From Tsuneonella mangrovi (GTDB lineage Bacteria; Pseudomonadota; Alphaproteobacteria; Sphingomonadales; Sphingomonadaceae), in contig NZ_CP022889.1 in the NCBI RefSeq assembly GCF_002269345.1, forward strand, positions 2,398,501 through 2,462,500: a stretch of 64,000 bases of DNA. The letters are read 5' to 3'. A model generated the notes under the pieces. That model did no database searches. It had not been told where the DNA came from and was given only the letters and a program-made list of their open reading frames with translations. The translations under genes were made by a program, and so were the position numbers. Shown here piece after piece: positions 37,606-46,675 of the stretch (position 1 is the stretch's first letter; every line of letters begins with the position of its first letter).

Positions 37606-37782
37606 TCAGTCGGAGTCCTCGCCGCGCACGATGTCGTCGGGGCTCGCTGGCGGGCCGGGGACGGCATAGCCATCGTTGAACCACTGCGCGAGGTCGCGGT
37701 CGCGGCAGCGCTGCGAACAGAACGGTGCGAACGCTTCTTTGCGTGGCTTCTTGCAGATCGGGCAAGGGCGAGGGGAAGTCAT
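37606..37782 (-). CDS. yacG: YacG zinc-binding protein (DNA gyrase inhibitor family)
   Basis: 58 aa. The four zinc Cys are in CPICKK and FCSQRCRDRD, followed by LAQWFNDGYAVPGPP, the family signature. E. coli YacG binds GyrB and inhibits gyrase. The ATG at 37782 overlaps the preceding RNase gene by 4 bases; the longer frame upstream is a shadow. It ends with an acidic tail (DIVRGEDSD). Confidence 0.92.
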   Translation of the reverse strand: MTSPRPCPICKKPRKEAFAPFCSQRCRDRDLAQWFNDGYAVPGPPASPDDIVRGEDSD

Positions 37783-38735
37783 CGCGCCACTAGCTGGGCG
37801 TGCGGAGCCTCTATGGCAAGGGCGGGATCGGTCTCGATCCGCACCTCTCGGCCCGTTCGGCGCGTGAGTTCGGAGAGCCACTCCGGCGTGAACCTGGCGG
37901 CGAGTGCCGGGTGGACCGTCAGCAAGGTCGCACCCGCTCCGTCGAGATGCTCGGCGCGGCGCAGGGCGAGCCTTGCTGCTGCCGCCGCTCGCGAGGTGGC
38001 CAGCCGGTGCAGCAGCGACGGCCCTTCGAGCCGGGCGACCAGTTGGACGAAACCGAAGCCGTTCATCGCGGTGCGCTCGTGCGGCCAGTCAGCCAGCGCC
38101 TTGGCCAATGCCTCGTCCACCGCGCGCCGACCGGCCTTGTCGGCGATCGTCGGAAAATCGATCCCGATCGAGCCGCCGAGATCGAACCAGCGCAGCGCCT
38201 GTGCGAGCGGTTCGACCGCAGCCAGCGCGAGTTCGCGTGCGGGCAGGTCGCCGTCGATGTCGATCACTGTCATCGCCGGGGTGACGGACAGCAGCAACGC
38301 GGCGCCATTGAAAGCGATCTCGCTCGAAGCGGCAGCGCTCCAGACTTCTTCCCAAAGTCCATCAGGAAACCGCCGGACCGTCTTGGAACTGCCGAATACG
38401 GTGTTGCTGCGATTCGCGTCGATCGTATCCGCTGGACGAGCAGCGGGGAGCTTGTAACGCCCGCGCTCGGCGATCGCGCCGCGTGTGACCACGAGGGGCA
38501 GTGTCGCCCCTTCCTGGGCATCGCGCGGCAGGCGATCGATCAGCACTTGCCGTCCGTCGGCGGTCTCTCCCACGCCCTGCGAAGCACCTGCTTCCTTGCG
38601 GACCAATTTCGCTTCGATGGGATCCTCGGCGCAGAATTCTCCTGGCCAGCGGACCTTTGCGGACAGCACCCTGTCGTCTTCGACCAGCAGCGCGCGCTGT
38701 TCTCCGATCCCGTCTTCGACGAGCCACTCAGGCAA
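37779..38735 (-). CDS. RNase E/G-like ribonuclease
   Basis: 318 aa from an unusual TTG at 38735 that overlaps the end of maf by 8 bases; no ATG is available at the homologous N-terminus (LPEWLVEDGIGEQRALLVE). It has AKLVRKEAGASQGV, AMTVIDIDGDLP (the metal Asp pair in the usual V-D-V-N/D context) and LGGSIGIDFPTI, in the style of the shortened RNase E/G catalytic core found next to maf and yacG in sphingomonads. It lacks the zinc-link and long C-terminal scaffold of true RNase E. It probably cleaves single-stranded RNA. Confidence 0.75.
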   Translation of the reverse strand: MPEWLVEDGIGEQRALLVEDDRVLSAKVRWPGEFCAEDPIEAKLVRKEAGASQGVGETADGRQVLIDRLPRDAQEGATLPLVVTRGAIAERGRYKLPAARPADTIDANRSNTVFGSSKTVRRFPDGLWEEVWSAAASSEIAFNGAALLLSVTPAMTVIDIDGDLPARELALAAVEPLAQALRWFDLGGSIGIDFPTIADKAGRRAVDEALAKALADWPHERTAMNGFGFVQLVARLEGPSLLHRLATSRAAAAARLALRRAEHLDGAGATLLTVHPALAARFTPEWLSELTRRTGREVRIETDPALAIEAPHAQLVAR

Positions 38736-39306
38736 TGGGAAATCCTGCGGCTCTAAGCAGCGCGCGGGTCTCGAAAAGCGGCAATCCGACAACGCCCGAA
38801 TGGCTGCCTTCGATCCACGCAACCAGCCCTTCGGCAGCGCCTTGGATCGCATATCCACCGGCCTTGCCGTGCCATTCGCCGCTGGCGAGATAGGCATCCA
38901 GCTCAGCGTCGGACAGCCGTTTGAAGCGTACGGTCGTCTCGCTCAAGCGCTCGCGAACAGTGCCATCGGGCCCGCGCAAGGCGATCGCCGACAGCACGCG
39001 GTGCCGCCGACCCGAAAGCAGTTCGAGGCACTGGCGCGCGGTTGCTTCGTCTTCCGCCTTGGGCAGGATGCGGCGACCGGCGGCGACAACTGTGTCTCCT
39101 GCCAGCACGAATGCGCTGTCTTCGGCGGCAGCTTCGGACTTCTCGCGCGCCATCCGGCGGGCATAATCGCGGGGCAGTTCGGCCTTGTGTGGCGTTTCGT
39201 CGATATCGGCAGGGGCGACGCGATCGGGGGTAATACCCAGCCGTGCGAGCAGTTCGCGCCGCCGGGGGCTGGCCGATGCGAGGACGAGTGTGGGGTTATC
39301 GGGCAC
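38728..39306 (-). CDS. maf: Maf-type nucleoside triphosphate pyrophosphatase
   Basis: 192 aa. It starts NPTLVLASASPRRRELLARLG, with FVLAGDTVVAAGRRILPK and GYAIQGAAEGLVAWIEGS, standard Maf motifs. The family hydrolyses non-canonical nucleotides such as dTTP/UTP analogues or m7GTP. It is the second gene after infA (21-base gap) and overlaps the RNase gene. Confidence 0.93.
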   Translation of the reverse strand: MPDNPTLVLASASPRRRELLARLGITPDRVAPADIDETPHKAELPRDYARRMAREKSEAAAEDSAFVLAGDTVVAAGRRILPKAEDEATARQCLELLSGRRHRVLSAIALRGPDGTVRERLSETTVRFKRLSDAELDAYLASGEWHGKAGGYAIQGAAEGLVAWIEGSHSGVVGLPLFETRALLRAAGFPIA

Positions 39307-39573: not shown

Positions 39574-39814
39574 CTAGCCGTACGGCTCCTTCGGTTCGCA
39601 GTTGGGGTTCGGTTTCGTATTGGTCGCGGCCCATAGCCGTGCACTGCGCAAAAGGAAAGCGTTTGCCGCTGCGGCGAAATTGGCCCTGTTCAGCGCCGGG
39701 AAACAACCATGCGACAAAAAGTTACGCTTTGACCACTTGCCTCGAAGCGCTCGGATAGCCAGTTGCGCGATCAGGCGGAGACCACGCTCTATCATCGATG
39801 GAGGCTACGGCCAC

Positions 39815-42793
39815 TTGCGAATTCCAGCTACCTGCATTTCGCTGCTTGCGCTTGCTGCTGCCGGTGCGCCGGCTGCGGCCCAGGAAGCTGCGCCCTTGGC
39901 CGGCACCTCAGCCGCAGCTGCAGCGCCGAACCAGGCACCGGTCGATCCGGTCGATGAGATCATCGTTACTGCAACCCGAATTCCTGGCGAAGTAGTGACC
40001 GACGTTCCGCCGGTGGTCGAGCTCAACGAGCAGGATATCGCCGCCTACGGAGCTTCGTCGATCGACGACTTGATCGGCCAACTCTCCGCCGAAACCAGCT
40101 CGGGCAGGGGCCGTGGCGGGCAACCGATCATCCTCATCAATGGCCAGCGGATTGCCAATTTCCGCGAGTTTCGCCGCTATCCGCCCGAAGCAATCCGCAA
40201 GGTGCAGGTCCTGCCCGAAGAAGTCGCACTCAAGTATGGCTATCCGCCCGACGCGCGAGTGATCAACATCATCCTCAAGCCCGATTTCGCCAGCAAGGAT
40301 GTCGAGCTCGAATTCGGGATGCCTCCGCGCGGCGGGACCAGCACGACCCAGCTGCAGGGATCGATGCTCAAGATCGCCGGACCGAACCGGTTCAATGCCA
40401 GCGGCGAGTACACCACCACCAGCCCGCTGACCGAGGCCGAGCGCGGAGTGGTTCAGTCGCCGGACAGCGTGCCGACCGTCGCGACCGACCCGAACCCGGC
40501 GGATTTCCGCACACTGGTGGCAAACGACAAGAAGCTCGAGGGCAACCTCACCTGGACCAAGGGCCTTGGGCAGGACGGGCTGGGCGGGCAGTTCACACTC
40601 AACGGGCAGGTCCTGCACGACATCACGCGCTCGCTGTCGGGCCTCGATACCGTCCTGCTGACCGATCCGTCAGGCAAGACCGCGCTGCGTACGCTCGATG
40701 CCAATCCGATCATGCGGCGTACCCGGTCCGATACCTATTCGCTCGGCGCATCGTTCAACAAGGCGTTTGGCGGCTGGCAGTTTCAATCGACACTCGATGC
40801 TGTCAAGGGCGTGAGCGAGAGCGCTATCGACCGGCGGCGCGACACCAGCGCACTGGTCGCCGATGCCGCTGCAGGGACGCTGGCGATCGACGGACCGCTC
40901 CCTGCCGTCGCGGGCGCAGGCATCGATACCGCGACGAGCAATACCTACAGTATCGACTCGCAAACGACATTGATCGGCCATCCCGTTTCGCTTCCGGCAG
41001 GCGATATCGGCGTGACGCTGAAGGGTGGTTACAAGCTCAACGGGATCGAAAGCAGCGATACCCGAAGCGTTGGCGCGGATGTGTCGCTCGATCGCCGCAG
41101 GACAAGCGGAGAGCTTACGTTCGCCGTCCCGATCACCAGCAGGCGCAACGGATTCGGCGATGCCATCGGCGATGTCACGCTCAATCTCGCGGGCGGGGTC
41201 GACAAGGTCTCCGACTTCGGCACGCTGTGGAATTACACGGCGGGTTTGGTGTGGAACCCGACCGATCGACTGGGGTTGCAGGCGACGCGGATCATGCAGG
41301 AAATCGCGCCCGGCCTGTCCCAGCTCGGCAATCCGGCGATCACCACCTATAACGTTCCGATCTACGATTTCACCTCCGGACAAACTGTGCTGGCGACCGT
41401 GACCAGCGGCGGCAATCCGGACCTCAAGGCCGAAACCCAGCGCGACTGGAAGCTTTCGGCCAACTACGATCTCGACATAGCCGAACGCGCAAGCTTCCGG
41501 ATCGAGTACTTCCATAACCACTCGACCAATACGACCAACTCCTTCCCTTTGTTGACGCCTGCGATCGAAGCGGCGTTTCCGGGGCGTGTGACCCGGGCGA
41601 ACGACGGCACATTGCTGGCGATCGACCAGCGTCCGGTGACATTTGCCGACGAGAGCAGTTCGCGGATTCGCTATGGTTTCAATATCTTCGGGCGTTTCGG
41701 CAAGGCGAACGCACAGGGGCAGGGCCGGGGCGGCTCCGATGACCGCCCGGCTCCCCCACCGCCGCCTCCTGCCGCAGCTGGCGGCCCGCCGGCGGCAGCA
41801 CCTCCTGTCGGCGGCGCGTTCGATCCCGCGCGGTTCGAGGCGATGCGGGCGAAGTTCTGCGCCACTCCGGTGGGCCAGACCCCGGACATTTCGCAACTGC
41901 CCGACCGCATGCAGCAGCGCCTGAAAGGCGAGGACGGCCAGGTCGATCCGGCCAAAGTCGCTGAAATGCGCCAGCGGTTCTGTGCGGCCGATGGCGCGAA
42001 CGGTCGTCCAAGGTTCGATCCCGAGCGGTTCGCCAAGGTGCGGGCAGCGCTGTGCCCCGATCCGGGCAAGGAGCCGGACCTGAGCATCCTACCGCCTGAA
42101 GCACTCGACCGGCTCAAGGGGTCCGATGGCAAGATCGATCCCGCGAGGCTCAAGGCGTTGCAGGCGCGGCTTTGCTCGATGCCGATGCCAGGCGCACAGG
42201 GCGGAGCCGGGCAGTCCGGTCCACGTAGCGAAGGCTCGGCCAATAGCGATGGGAACGGTCGCGGCGGCGGCATGCTCCCGTTCGGGCGGCGCGGGAACGG
42301 CCAGGGACGCTGGATGCTTTCGCTCTATCATACGGTGGAGCTGACCAACCGGATCCTTGTCGCGCCCGGCGGTCCGGAACTCGACCAGCTCAATGGCGAT
42401 GCCACCGGCAGCGGCGGCGTGCCGCGTCACAAGATCGAACTCGAGGGCGGCTTGTTCAAGAGCGGCATCGGTGGGCGCGTATCGGCAAACTGGCAAAGTG
42501 CGACGACTGTGAACGGGAGCGGCCTTCCCGGTTCGAGCGACCTGCATTTCGGTAGCCTGGCAACCTTCAATTTGCGCATGTTCGTCGACCTCTCGCAGCA
42601 GCGCTGGCTGACCGGAGGCGGCGACGATGCAGGATTCTGGAAGGGTGCGCGGTTCTCGTTAAGGGTCAACAACCTGTTCGACGCGCGCCAACGAGTGACC
42701 GACGGCAGCGGAGCAGTTCCGCTAAGCTACCAGCCTGCCTTGATCGACCCAGTGGGCCGGTTCGTCGAGGTCGAATTCCGCAAGATGTTCTGA
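39815..42793 (+). CDS. TonB-dependent receptor-like outer membrane protein with Cys-repeat insert
   Basis: About 992 aa. I chose TTG at 39815, 10 bases after GGAGG, because it opens a clean signal peptide (LRIPATCISLLALAAAG...AAAQ); the frame further upstream is not coding. A TonB-box-like DEIIVTATR precedes a short plug (GQPIILINGQRIANFREF, ALKYGYPPDARVINIILK). A 22-strand-type barrel follows, ending FVEVEFRKMF. Between barrel strands, about residues 630-800, sits a Pro-rich linker and four FDPxR...C units, unlike ordinary receptors. The ligand is unknown. Its neighbours, infA on one side and mipZ on the other, give no hint. Confidence 0.82.
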   Translation: MRIPATCISLLALAAAGAPAAAQEAAPLAGTSAAAAAPNQAPVDPVDEIIVTATRIPGEVVTDVPPVVELNEQDIAAYGASSIDDLIGQLSAETSSGRGRGGQPIILINGQRIANFREFRRYPPEAIRKVQVLPEEVALKYGYPPDARVINIILKPDFASKDVELEFGMPPRGGTSTTQLQGSMLKIAGPNRFNASGEYTTTSPLTEAERGVVQSPDSVPTVATDPNPADFRTLVANDKKLEGNLTWTKGLGQDGLGGQFTLNGQVLHDITRSLSGLDTVLLTDPSGKTALRTLDANPIMRRTRSDTYSLGASFNKAFGGWQFQSTLDAVKGVSESAIDRRRDTSALVADAAAGTLAIDGPLPAVAGAGIDTATSNTYSIDSQTTLIGHPVSLPAGDIGVTLKGGYKLNGIESSDTRSVGADVSLDRRRTSGELTFAVPITSRRNGFGDAIGDVTLNLAGGVDKVSDFGTLWNYTAGLVWNPTDRLGLQATRIMQEIAPGLSQLGNPAITTYNVPIYDFTSGQTVLATVTSGGNPDLKAETQRDWKLSANYDLDIAERASFRIEYFHNHSTNTTNSFPLLTPAIEAAFPGRVTRANDGTLLAIDQRPVTFADESSSRIRYGFNIFGRFGKANAQGQGRGGSDDRPAPPPPPPAAAGGPPAAAPPVGGAFDPARFEAMRAKFCATPVGQTPDISQLPDRMQQRLKGEDGQVDPAKVAEMRQRFCAADGANGRPRFDPERFAKVRAALCPDPGKEPDLSILPPEALDRLKGSDGKIDPARLKALQARLCSMPMPGAQGGAGQSGPRSEGSANSDGNGRGGGMLPFGRRGNGQGRWMLSLYHTVELTNRILVAPGGPELDQLNGDATGSGGVPRHKIELEGGLFKSGIGGRVSANWQSATTVNGSGLPGSSDLHFGSLATFNLRMFVDLSQQRWLTGGGDDAGFWKGARFSLRVNNLFDARQRVTDGSGAVPLSYQPALIDPVGRFVEVEFRKMF

Positions 42794-42961: not shown

Positions 42962-43966
42962 TCAGCCGACCGCGGCCGCCTTCCTGGGAGCTTCGACCCG
43001 CTGCGGAGTGAGGAATTCCTGCAATGCCTTCACATAGTTGGCGCGGGTCCGGCCTTGTATCCGCACGCGACGCTCCGCTGCCGCCTCGACAGGGTGACCG
43101 GGCTTATGGGGGAGGTCGAAACTGTCGACCAGGCGCGCGATTTCCCTGCTGTCGCCGGTGCGCGTGTTGCTGAGCTGCGGCAAGTGCTTGAGGTCGGTCG
43201 TCGCGAGCCCGAACTGCAGCAAGCCGCGATAGGCGACTCGTTCGCGCAAGCCGTCAACCACTCGAATCCCATATGCACCTGACAATTGGGCGATTGCGGC
43301 ATCGATGCGCGCGAGTTGGGCGGTCTCGGCGGTTCTGACCCGGTTCTTGGCAACGACCCAATCTGCCAGCGCAATGTCTCGGCGGGCCTGCTCTTCGCGC
43401 AAGTCGATGACCGTGCGGGTGAACGCGCTCGGTTCGCGCAAGCGGCGCGTCACCGGGTCGAAGTGACCCAATCCGTCGAGGTCGAAGTACGACGCGTTGA
43501 TCGGCGTCACCAGCGTATCGGCGATAGCGATCGCGCGGCGCACGATCGGCAAGTCGCGGCCGGGGGCATCGATCACGATCACGTCGCAGCCGCTCCCGAG
43601 CCGGGCGATTTCCTGCTGGACGATCGCGCTGCAATTGCTTTCGATCCGGCACGCGCGGACTTCGGGTAACCGGGTGCCGAGGCACCGGGCAGTCGCCTGC
43701 CGTGTCTCCAGCGTCCGCGCGAGGCTGCCCTGGCGCGCGTCTAGGTCGATTGCGAGGACCGACATCCCGCGCGAGGCGAGCGCGACGCAGGTATGGAAGG
43801 CCATCGTGGTCTTGCCCACGCCGCCCTTTTCGTTGGCGAAGGTCACTACGTGGCCGTGCGGATTGCGGTGGCGATCGATCTCGTCGAGAACCCGCGAAGG
43901 GGATTCCCCGTTGGTGTACGGTTCGCGGCCAATTCCCGCGCGCTCGGCAAAATCGTCTGGTTTCAT
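42962..43966 (-). CDS. mipZ: MipZ-like ParA-family ATPase (division-site positioning)
   Basis: 334 aa from ATG at 43966 (an in-frame GTG at 43993 is possible). A 40-residue N-terminal extension precedes the deviant Walker A in VTFANEKGGVGKTTMAFHT. DLDARQGSLARTLETR, VIVIDAPGRDLPIVRRAIAIADTL, TPINASYFDLDGLGHFDP and LADWVVAKNRVR match MipZ rather than plasmid ParA. MipZ forms a gradient from the poles through ParB and keeps FtsZ at midcell. At 334 aa it is longer than Caulobacter MipZ because of both termini. Tandem DnaA boxes and a CtrA-like motif lie upstream. Confidence 0.78.
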   Translation of the reverse strand: MKPDDFAERAGIGREPYTNGESPSRVLDEIDRHRNPHGHVVTFANEKGGVGKTTMAFHTCVALASRGMSVLAIDLDARQGSLARTLETRQATARCLGTRLPEVRACRIESNCSAIVQQEIARLGSGCDVIVIDAPGRDLPIVRRAIAIADTLVTPINASYFDLDGLGHFDPVTRRLREPSAFTRTVIDLREEQARRDIALADWVVAKNRVRTAETAQLARIDAAIAQLSGAYGIRVVDGLRERVAYRGLLQFGLATTDLKHLPQLSNTRTGDSREIARLVDSFDLPHKPGHPVEAAAERRVRIQGRTRANYVKALQEFLTPQRVEAPRKAAAVG

Positions 43967-44026
43967 TGCGACCCACCCCGGTATGCGAATCACTTCACAA
44001 TGGACACATTCTTCCGCGAAAGTGAC

Positions 44027-44104
44027 TTATCCACAAGTTATTCACCTTGCCAAACACAGGCAACCGGACGTTAACCATACTAGGGTTTTGAATTCGTTAA
44101 CGAA
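44027..44104 (-). promoter_or_regulatory. DnaA boxes, CtrA-like motif and palindrome upstream of mipZ
   Basis: On the plus strand TTATCCACA (44027-44035) is a perfect DnaA box, followed after 2 bases by TTATTCACC (44038-44046, one mismatch). TTAACCAT (44071-44078) resembles a CtrA site, and TTCGTTAACGAA (44093-44104) is a perfect 12-bp palindrome. A GANTC methylation site (GAATC, 43987-43991) also lies in the region. All are within about 140 bases of the mipZ start. Confidence 0.55.
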
Positions 44105-44196
44105 GAATATCGCCGCGAAGGCCCGCCGACCCGAACTGGGCACTGGAGCCTTGCGGCCAGTCCAGAGGGCTACCCGCCTTTCTTGCGCAGTGATCG

Positions 44197-44982
44197 CTAG
44201 TGGAGCCGTGTCTTCGGGAACGCAAAGGCGCACAGGCCTTTCGCTTCGAACGGATGCCAGTCTCCGTCAGCCTGGGCCAGCCGGTCGGCCAGCGCGAACA
44301 TCACCGAGGGGTTTACGCCGAGGCCGATATGGCTTGCATAGACTTCGATATTCTCGGTCTGCGCATGATCGCCAGGATGCTGGACCGACCCGCGCCAGTG
44401 GACCACGCCATCGCCGCGAGTGAGGATCGAGGTCGTCGGTACCGGCGGCGCTTCCGCCAGTTGGCGAAAATCGCCTTTGCGGATCGGCTCGGGTTCGCGC
44501 CCATTGAGGTATTCGAATAGCCGCCGCGCGTTGGTGTGATTGCGGTCGTCGCTGATCGGACTACCGAGCGTAATCACCTGGCGGACCTTGTCGGGCATCT
44601 TCTTCGCTAATTCGCGCGCAAAGACTCCGCCAAGGCTCCAGCCGACGATCGAAACCTTGCCTCCCGTGCGATCGTAGAGCGCTTCGACGCAGCACATCAT
44701 CTCTTCGACCCGCGCATCGTCGACTCGCACGTTGCGCCCGAGGTTCCAGCCTTCGACCACGTAACCGAGCTGCCCCAGCAGGCGGCGCATAGGCCCGGTC
44801 GAGGTATCGCTGGCGAGGAAACCGGGCAGCACCAGCACGCCGTGGCCATCGCCCTTGGGGAGCGCGCCCATCAGCGGGCGCATCGCGAGGAATGCGGCGA
44901 ATTCGCCCATTGCGCGGCCCGGCTCGGTAATTGCCAGCAGGCGGCTGGGCGGTCGCGCAGTATCTGCAGCGGCAGTGGTCAT
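44197..44982 (-). CDS. Alpha/beta-hydrolase (esterase/lipase-like)
   Basis: 261 aa. GVLVLPGFLASDTSTGPMRRLL supplies the oxyanion region, VSIVGWSLGGVFAREL the nucleophile elbow (Ser in GWSLG), LTRGDGVVHW the Asp region and ASHIGLGVNPSV the catalytic His. The overall look is that of triacylglycerol or cofactor-independent lipase relatives. It is translationally coupled (4-base overlap) downstream of the wax-ester synthase gene, which suggests it hydrolyses a lipid made or stored by that enzyme (inference). Confidence 0.8.
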   Translation of the reverse strand: MTTAAADTARPPSRLLAITEPGRAMGEFAAFLAMRPLMGALPKGDGHGVLVLPGFLASDTSTGPMRRLLGQLGYVVEGWNLGRNVRVDDARVEEMMCCVEALYDRTGGKVSIVGWSLGGVFARELAKKMPDKVRQVITLGSPISDDRNHTNARRLFEYLNGREPEPIRKGDFRQLAEAPPVPTTSILTRGDGVVHWRGSVQHPGDHAQTENIEVYASHIGLGVNPSVMFALADRLAQADGDWHPFEAKGLCAFAFPKTRLH

Positions 44983-46529
44983 CTCTTGTTGCTCCCGGTC
45001 TTTTTTGTGCGCGAAGTCGTGCGCTTCGCCTTGGTTGTCTTGGGCGCTGCCTTCTTCGGCGCAGCACGGCGCTTTACGGGCTTTTCAGCCGGTTTCGGTG
45101 TATCGCCTGCGGCTCGAGCGGCATCGCGCAATTCCTCGAAACTTTGCTCGATACACTGTGCGTAGAATTCTGGATCGGGCATCAATTCGCGGCAAGCGGT
45201 GAAGCTGATCGTGGCCTCGTCGGTATACGACTGGACGACGTGGGCAAGGCCCATCCCGTCGGTCAGGCAAACGAGGCCCATCATGCTTTCAAGCCTCGCC
45301 CCGGTCGAATAGATCGGAACCGGCGGGCCTGGCACATTTGTGACGACGGTCGAGAAAATCGGCCCCACGCCGCGGTTGGCGAGGCCGAGGCGGGTATAGA
45401 GCTGCGCGCCGAGGCTCATCCACAACGCCGGACTGACCTTGCTCGCTTCGGTCATGTTGCGCGCGCCGATCGCTTCGGTCATCGCCTTCGAATTGGTGGT
45501 TTTCGAATGGACGTAGGCCAGCCGCTCGACCGGATCCTCGATATGCGTCCCGAGCGGCGCGACCATCGCCGCGACCTGGTTGCCCATGTCGCCTTTTTCG
45601 GACTTCGAGCGGACCGAGATTGGTGCCATCGCGGTCAGCGTCTTGTCGGGCAGGTCGTCCTTGGCCAGCAGATACTTGCGCATCGCCCCGCCAATGATCG
45701 CGAGGAACACGTCGTTTACCTTGCATCCGGGCGCAAGCGCACGGATCGCCTTGATATCGGCCAGCGGAACGCTGCGGCCTTCGACCACCCTGTGCGCCGA
45801 GATGACCTTGTTGAACCGGGTCTTCGCGCCGAGCATCTCGCCCGAGACCTTGAATTCCTTGGCCACCAGGCCCTTCAGCGCCTTGGCAATCCCCGGCGCC
45901 GCCTTGGCCGCGACTTCGAGCTGCTTCATCGGGTTGGTGACCGCGTTGAAGTAGCTTTTGCCGAGCAGTTCGGCGGGGTTGGGCAGCTTGTCCGGCTTCC
46001 AGGTATCGGGCTCACTGGGCGGCGGCTCGTTCGGATCGAGCGTGTGCATCGCCTCCATCAGGTCGATACCGCTCATCCCGTCGATCGCCGCGTGGTGGAC
46101 CTTGGTCACCATCCCGAAGCAGCCCTTTGGCAATCCCTCGATCCCGTCGAGCCCTTCGACGACGGTGAATTCCCACGGCGGGCGGGTGAGGTCGAGCGGG
46201 CGGGCGAAGATCCGCGCAGCCTGGATGCACAGCTGCCGCCAGTCGCCCGGTTGCGGCAACGCGACGTGGCGTACGTGGTATTCGAGGTCGAAGTCCGGAT
46301 CCTCGATCCAGTAGGGATAATCGAGGTCGAACGGTACCCGCACCAGCCGCTGACGGATCGTCCGGCTGAGCTGCATCCGGCTTTCGAAGAAAGCGAGGAT
46401 ATCCTTGAAGCGGACGAAGCCGCCCGGCGCAGTTGCAGGGTTGTAAATCAGGATCGACCCGATGTGCATCGGGGAGTTCTTCGTCTCCAACGCGACGAAG
46501 CTCGCATCCATCCCTTGCAATTGGCGCAA
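44979..46529 (-). CDS. Wax-ester synthase/diacylglycerol acyltransferase (WS/DGAT) with Lys-rich tail
   Basis: 516 aa. The catalytic motif HHAAIDG (in TKVHHAAIDGMSGIDL) and PLDLTRPPWEF, plus the late TNVPGPPVPIYSTGARL, identify a WS/DGAT that esterifies acyl-CoA to alcohols or diacylglycerol at the inner face of the membrane. I place the start at TTG 46529, 6 bases after AGGAGG; this gives MRQLQGMDASFVALE, the family's normal opening. ATG 46535 directly abuts the ribosome site. The last 45 residues are Lys/Ala/Pro/Thr-rich (PVKRRAAPKKAAPK...), like histone H1 tails. It overlaps the hydrolase gene by 4 bases. Confidence 0.86.
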   Translation of the reverse strand: MRQLQGMDASFVALETKNSPMHIGSILIYNPATAPGGFVRFKDILAFFESRMQLSRTIRQRLVRVPFDLDYPYWIEDPDFDLEYHVRHVALPQPGDWRQLCIQAARIFARPLDLTRPPWEFTVVEGLDGIEGLPKGCFGMVTKVHHAAIDGMSGIDLMEAMHTLDPNEPPPSEPDTWKPDKLPNPAELLGKSYFNAVTNPMKQLEVAAKAAPGIAKALKGLVAKEFKVSGEMLGAKTRFNKVISAHRVVEGRSVPLADIKAIRALAPGCKVNDVFLAIIGGAMRKYLLAKDDLPDKTLTAMAPISVRSKSEKGDMGNQVAAMVAPLGTHIEDPVERLAYVHSKTTNSKAMTEAIGARNMTEASKVSPALWMSLGAQLYTRLGLANRGVGPIFSTVVTNVPGPPVPIYSTGARLESMMGLVCLTDGMGLAHVVQSYTDEATISFTACRELMPDPEFYAQCIEQSFEELRDAARAAGDTPKPAEKPVKRRAAPKKAAPKTTKAKRTTSRTKKTGSNKR

Positions 46530-46675
46530 AGGCATCCTCCTGTCCCATGTGCACGCAACCGCCGTGTTTGTACGATTGTTGCGCAGGTCGGCCCGCTTTT
46601 GCAGGTCCATGACAAGGAGGTAACGTGCGCAGCGGCAAGGTCAACCTGCCGCCTGCGTAAGCGCTTTCCTTTGCG

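Follow-up and report, generated by a model that had tools for sequence, protein, structure and literature searches.

To our knowledge, the extra domains known from TonB-dependent receptors are all N-terminal and precede the TonB box. In FecA, FpvA, and FoxA, an extra periplasmic domain is carried by a flexible linker on the receptor's TonB side (cited passages of PMC11658791 and PMC6699858). Here we describe a receptor of Tsuneonella mangrovi, a member of the Sphingomonadaceae, encoded in a stretch of 64,000 nucleotides (contig NZ_CP022889.1, positions 2,398,501 to 2,462,500; hereafter the window, in whose coordinates all features are given), in which a long insert with duplicated, Cys-paired units lies between two strands of the barrel. 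Added N-terminal signalling domains are already known, whereas a module borne by a barrel turn on the periplasmic side, as predicted for this insert, would be a new variant, built from an unnamed domain. No report of a module in such a turn was found in the open-licence literature searched, and passages of a study of sphingomonad receptors (PMC7142613) make no mention of such an insert. We propose, with a probability of roughly 0.45, that the insert is a tethered helical module in turn 8, probably closed by disulfides, that may serve as a periplasmic docking platform beside the TonB site.

The insert comprises about 202 residues (41699–42304, + strand, as are all features of the receptor gene; residues 607–808 of the AlphaFold2 [AF2] model of the receptor) and extends from the strand end ...YGFNIFGRFGK to the strand start RWMLSLYHT. 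It begins with a Pro/Gly/Arg-rich tether (tether 1, 41699–41818) that contains the Pro-rich run PAPPPPPPAAAGGPPAAAPPVGG, continues through unit 1 (41819–41983, from FDPARFEAMRAKFC to VDPAKVAEMRQRFC), a short spacer, and unit 2 (42014–42175, from FDPERFAKVRAALC to IDPARLKALQARLC), and closes with a Gly/Arg-rich tether (tether 2, 42176–42304). A first, sequence-only reading of this DNA had pointed to a Pro/Gly run, a duplicated Cys pattern, and a Gly/Arg stretch inside a TonB receptor barrel, and all three were present where it placed them, as far as 42304. Each unit is about 55 residues long with two Cys, encoded at 41858–41860 and 41981–41983 in unit 1 and at 42053–42055 and 42173–42175 in unit 2; in the numbering of the AF2 model they are Cys660 and Cys701, and Cys725 and Cys765. 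Between the Cys segments the units carry the matching motifs PDISQLP and PDLSILP, and likewise RLKGEDG and RLKGSDG. Both units follow one plan, in which a predicted helix ending in Cys (H1) leads into a connector (LP..RLKGEDG in unit 1) with a short helix after the LP motif and a GxDGxID turn, and then into a second Cys-ended helix (H3).

H1 and H3 share the pattern hDP[AE]R (h, hydrophobic), further hydrophobic positions, an Arg four residues before the Cys, and the Cys itself. Across 134 units, the two Cys-ended 14-mers within a unit were 37% identical (32% without the Cys), while column-permuted controls with the Cys held in place averaged 16% and reached at most 30%, so that none of 500 attained 37%; the description of the insert as four repeats arranged in two copies was thereby borne out. 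Structure prediction separated the same elements, with ten-residue block means of the predicted local distance difference test score (pLDDT) of 78–95 in the units, 51 in the spacer, and 28–49 in most of the tethers; tether 1 was mostly below 50 (residues 614–625 and 627–646), as were residues 769–803 of tether 2. The helices were kept when the two units were modelled alone with AF2 (mean pLDDT 78, predicted template modelling score [pTM] 0.39). In 90 Cys-bearing receptors, tether 1 ranged from 23 to 68 residues (median 40) and tether 2 from 29 to 90 (median 41), and the tethers consisted of 39% Gly, 12% Pro, and 9% Arg with a mean net charge of +3.2, whereas the Cys cores were acidic on average (−4.0). 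The earlier remark that the insert is not a normal receptor loop was upheld.

The Cys of this turn come in pairs. In a first set of 108 receptors (30 from matches in family genomes and 78 of 80 from named genomes), 63 had four Cys in turn 8, 27 had two, and 18 had none; two receptors truncated by contig ends (L052 and L092, which show four and two insert-type Cys) were dropped before this count. A second set of 40 receptors, taken from further family-genome matches and chosen to broaden the range, gave 8, 9, and 23, and the number was never odd in either set. Together, 71, 36, and 41 of 148 receptors had four, two, and no such Cys, although some rows are near-copies; after removal of rows more than 98.5% identical, the counts were 61, 31, and 38 of 130. 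The Cys-bearing repeat was thus found in 107 of 148 receptors. From the TonB-box-like segment onward, no Cys occurred elsewhere in 146 of 148 receptors (107/108 and 39/40), and the number of units found by profile equalled the number of Cys pairs in 107/108 and 40/40, the single exception (L021) having an additional, overlapping partial profile match.

The 36 single-unit receptors contained exactly two insert Cys, 40–63 residues apart, so the sole intramolecular partner of each Cys is the other Cys of its unit. For this reason, one disulfide within each unit is most likely, judging from these sequence patterns, and is favored over a metal site; the alternatives are a bond between separate molecules or a metal held jointly by them. 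The sequence-only reading had left the choice between two disulfides and a metal site; the never-odd Cys counts favor the former, and the latter is weakened by the single-unit receptors and by the lack of His among the conserved unit columns.

A metal or calcium site was also considered in a broader form, in which the Cys or EF-hand-like DGxID turns would bind metal in the periplasm and perhaps pass on imported metal. The Cys are conserved, and the turn and H3 of the unit resemble the second half of an EF-hand: hhalign aligned the unit profile with it over 17 columns (probability 59.7, P 8.9e-5, score 19.9), a score reached by none of 150 column-permuted profiles (best 15.5) and none of 56 barrel slices (best 13.3). 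In one genome (G320), moreover, the unit profile matched at E 4.5e-4 a protein that looks secreted and carries several canonical EF-hands (L152, + strand, 220-residue open frame), which was rejected as a copy of the unit, and three of seven weak matches in a PDB sequence search were calmodulin-like (E 0.33 to 4.2), with nothing under E 0.33. When 133 of the 134 units were aligned on the DG turn, however, loop position 1 was Leu in 117/133 and position 12 was Lys or Arg in 125/133 (positions 3 and 5 were Asp or Asn in 44/133 and 122/133), and a canonical calcium-binding EF-hand is ruled out, since the calcium ligands at positions 1 and 12 are missing. Acidic residues at position 12 were observed in 5/133 units, including a few long units (L057, L058, and L091), and these members may, from their sequences, be more EF-hand-like than the rest.

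Foldseek with the two units returned 31 matches, none at E ≤ 0.001 and the best at E 2.3; these insignificant matches include a chain of 149 residues in a ryanodine-receptor entry, perhaps calmodulin (E 3.7), and a centrin (E 5.2), each with a template modelling score of about 0.2. VIA-align of the two-unit model gave three rows with Z 2.1–3.0, none of them an EF-hand, and for a small model with pTM 0.39 a missing fold match probably carries little weight. No significant Pfam or NCBIfam family and no significant PDB match was obtained for the units; in a Pfam search of 50 units, the best results, YppG (E 0.0026, one unit) and DUF3135 (8/50, best E 0.0039), were taken as chance. With only two Cys in single-unit receptors, and with the periplasm being an oxidising compartment, we regard metal or calcium binding as distinctly improbable, and the EF-hand likeness may be convergent, arising from a DG turn and a D-P helix cap.

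Placement of the insert relied on the AF2 receptor model, built on a 79-sequence alignment that included the window sequence (mean pLDDT 85, pTM 0.74). VIA-align matched residues 35–970 of this model to solved TonB-dependent receptors, the best being PirA (Z 23.1, root-mean-square deviation [rmsd] 4.0, 501 aligned), followed by Cir (Z 21.3, rmsd 4.3, 530 aligned) and BtuB 1nqf (Z 20.9, rmsd 4.3, 481 aligned), and the initial assignment as a TonB receptor is upheld by this fold. The modelled barrel has 22 strands by count on the AF2 secondary structure, 16 before the insert (residues 135–147, 155–166, 169–180, 215–229, 236–253, 278–296, 299–317, 348–371, 374–393, 401–420, 431–443, 447–459, 464–475, 518–531, 536–553, and 586–606) and six after it (809–826, 850–860, 863–877, 893–903, 923–930, and 961–969); residues 487–509 were taken as a hairpin within a loop, and counting them as strands leaves the parity unchanged. 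The insert thus lies, as first noted, between barrel strands, namely the modelled strands 16 (41636–41698) and 17 (42305–42358).

The C-terminal strand of outer-membrane barrels terminates in the periplasm. Because an even number of strands follows the insert and the last of them should end there, the insert is predicted to be periplasmic turn 8. Turn lengths in the AF2 model agree with this side, the nine other turns of the insert's parity having 2–19 residues and the eleven loops of opposite parity 3–42. Surface exposure had been thought probable at first; the insert might then be, for instance, a ligand-capture or adhesion loop. In its favor, an extracellular loop is the usual place for a long insert in an outer-membrane barrel. 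Exposure is at odds with the modelled strand parity on both sides, the short turns of the same parity, and the C-terminal strand, and now appears very improbable.

Selective constraint was assessed on 17 pairs with no receptor in common, out of 41 pairs of similar receptors. The pooled ratio of nonsynonymous to synonymous substitution rates (dN/dS) was 0.122 in the barrel, 0.125 in the units, and 0.238 in the tethers, and gapped residues beside aligned codons numbered 430/12848, 25/1857, and 224/1270, respectively. The units are under purifying selection like the barrel, and their coding frame is constrained. A barrel-only tree of 130 rows was built by a quick method, with several weak branches, and its root was set on outgroups without units. 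It required 7 changes for the presence or absence of units and 20 for their copy number; had the units arisen only once, at the ancestor of 121 rows, 7 losses would have to follow. Gain, duplication, and loss involved whole units. Within a protein, units 1 and 2 of 55 two-unit receptors were 46% identical, and between proteins identity was 46% for unit 1, 46% for unit 2, and 40% for cross pairs, a pattern consistent with an ancient duplication that was later homogenised or with duplication more than once.

Such turnover, at least 20 changes among copy numbers 0, 1, and 2, together with the freely varying tether length, speaks for a nearly neutral passenger, that is, a small folding element retained by chance in a turn that tolerates inserts. 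Against this stand the equality of unit and barrel in pooled dN/dS, the rarity of indels in the units, their location in the same turn in 107/107 Cys-bearing receptors extracted, and the limit of two unit matches per genome among the matches listed, so that we hold a passenger to be quite unlikely. The turn itself appears to be older. Outside the units, Gly and Arg made up 31–65% of turn 8 in 148/148 receptors, whereas the rest of the protein averaged 17% (108-receptor set), and as the unit-free receptors are included, the disordered turn probably predates the units. A disordered periplasmic turn seems to characterise this receptor family as a whole, whether or not Cys units are present.

The turn's presence in all receptors, together with the paired Cys and the purifying selection on the module, would also suit a device for assembly or stability, in which a stapled unit aids barrel folding, protects the long turn against proteolysis, or flags that turn to a chaperone. 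However, turns of 23–108 residues with 32–65% Gly plus Arg persist in the 41 receptors that have no units (such as L026, L085, L180, and L217), and constraint at the level of the barrel exceeds the need of a mere spacer; we consider such a device possible but unlikely.

Receptor-borne units were found in one bacterial family only among the genomes sampled. A receptor match at E ≤ 0.001 was present in 142 of 149 Sphingomonadaceae genomes, of which the weakest are probably other TonB receptors. At the same threshold, the unit profile matched at least 117 of 397 genomes of this family, two of them (G318 and G320) weakly and outside a receptor-sized frame, and 77/296, 4/385, and 7/398 genomes in samples of the order, class, and phylum; these samples overlap, and the genomes matched in the latter three all belong to the Sphingomonadaceae. 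No genome had more than two unit matches among those listed for the 117 and 77 matched genomes. The match in G318 was rejected as a unit outside a receptor, as it contains a stop and lies in no receptor-sized frame. Named carriers include Tsuneonella, Qipengyuania, Erythrobacter, Citromicrobium, Croceibacterium, and Aurantiacibacter, and six rows named Novosphingobium were without units. Within the T. mangrovi genome, a profile whose rows include both window units recovered these two copies, at E 3.4e-28 and E 4.4e-23, with no further match up to E 10; a weak match (E 0.106) opposite a gene read as DUF1476-like was absent with the profile and was discarded as a further copy. Plasmid and phage copies were sought with tblastn, and none was found at E ≤ 0.01.

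How such a module might act is suggested by receptors seen with TonB. In FhuA, turns 8 and 9 are labelled beside the bound TonB domain (PMC11658791, legend in section 9), and in FoxA, residues of periplasmic loops join a secondary TonB contact (cited passage of PMC6699858). By analogy, a module held on turn 8 would be suspended from the barrel's TonB side. We envisage that turn 8 became two flexible Gly/Pro/Arg tethers of about 40 residues each that hold one or two modules, each consisting of two Cys-ended helices joined by a short helix and the DGxID turn and closed by its own Cys pair. This module would recruit or position a periplasmic partner close to the TonB-box side of the barrel; the partner could be the cell wall, a protein that handles cargo, or the C-terminal domain of a TonB-family protein, with TonB itself as the boldest candidate.

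Several points weigh against a docking platform. The reading frame is open, and where there are units their Cys are conserved, but 41 of the 148 homologues are without Cys units and keep only the Gly/Arg-rich turn, which implies that the module is not required for basic receptor function. Taken pair by pair, dN/dS of the units exceeded the barrel's in 6 of the 17 cases, fell short of it in 10, and was undefined in the remaining one, and with the weaker model of the two units alone, their mutual arrangement is tentative. The FhuA legend gives the position of turn 8 only, and the FoxA passage does not name the contacting loops.

A stronger version of the docking platform, in which a tethered arm with redox-closed modules catches either one specific TonB protein or the cell wall close to the TonB box and thereby gates or selects energised uptake, with copy number tuning the strength of this capture, seems doubtful to us; if true, TonB-dependent transport would have a periplasmic control domain of a new kind. 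More generally, an unnamed helical module has apparently been grafted into a predicted periplasmic turn, is under purifying selection, and resides at a locus with conserved neighbours, and natural homologues with 0, 1, and 2 copies provide a ready series for studying the role of periplasmic turns in TonB coupling.

The receptor gene was listed as an open reading frame at 39602–42793 with a TTG start and 1063 amino acids. This start is probably too early, judging from sequence features: a second TTG at 39815 is preferred because it follows a GGAGG at 39800–39804, opens a signal-peptide-like N-terminus (MRIPATCISLLALAAAGAPAAA), and agrees with the starts of several homologues, whose alignments begin near residue 72 of the 1063-residue frame. 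The likely coding sequence (39815–42793) thus encodes 992 amino acids. After a cleavage site read from the sequence, a mature N-terminal tail of low model confidence (residues 1–24, 39881–39952) precedes DEIIVTATR (residues 25–33, 39953–39979), whose sequence pattern leads us to take it as a putative TonB box and in which I27 and V29 were invariant in 79 sequences. The putative plug domain follows (residues about 35–133, 39983–40279), supported by the fold match from residue 35 and by a sub-threshold match to Pfam Plug (E 0.027, 15.4 bits, under the 23.9-bit cut-off). Among 14 receptors scanned at E ≤ 0.01, Plug was detected in 9 and the barrel model in 3, the window receptor being in neither group, and it was also absent from the 18 Plug matches in its own genome. 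The closest named homologues were those of Tsuneonella flava (70%) and T. suprasediminis (68%, both best segment). Taken with the modelled fold, the window protein is a real but divergent 22-strand TonB-dependent receptor.

Upstream, Maf (38728–39306, − strand) diverges from the receptor gene, and it lies upstream on the opposite strand in 78 of 80 named loci, not always directly adjoining the receptor (e.g., L090). Because Maf is kept in this way, the receptors are most likely orthologous. Together with an RNase E/G-like gene, it forms a conserved neighbourhood divergent from the receptor (37779–39306). Downstream, on the other strand (42962–46610), are genes for a MipZ-type ATPase, an alpha/beta hydrolase, and a wax-ester-synthase-like acyltransferase, which are not constantly beside the receptor in named loci. 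No hint of an operon or substrate was seen in the neighbouring genes.

Compared with known systems, the receptor resembles PirA, Cir, BtuB, and FhuA in its predicted plug and 22-strand barrel, its TonB-box-like segment, and its C-terminal Phe strand, and differs from them in that disordered tethers and Cys-helix units are predicted to replace periplasmic turn 8 and in its sequence divergence, which leaves the Pfam Plug match at no better than the E-value given above. The unit likewise shares with EF-hands a predicted helix-turn-helix with a DGxI[DN] turn and a partial profile similarity above controls; it is unlike them in lacking ligands at positions 1 and 12, in its paired Cys, and in giving no significant structural match. 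With FecA, FpvA, and FoxA, the receptor would have in common an additional periplasmic domain on a flexible linker at the TonB side. In these signalling receptors the extra domain is N-terminal, before the TonB box, whereas here the mature chain has no more than about 24 residues ahead of the TonB-box-like segment, leaving no N-terminal signalling domain of about 80 residues (and none by Pfam), and the extra module instead occupies a barrel turn nearer the C-terminus, is predicted to be helical, and carries paired Cys.

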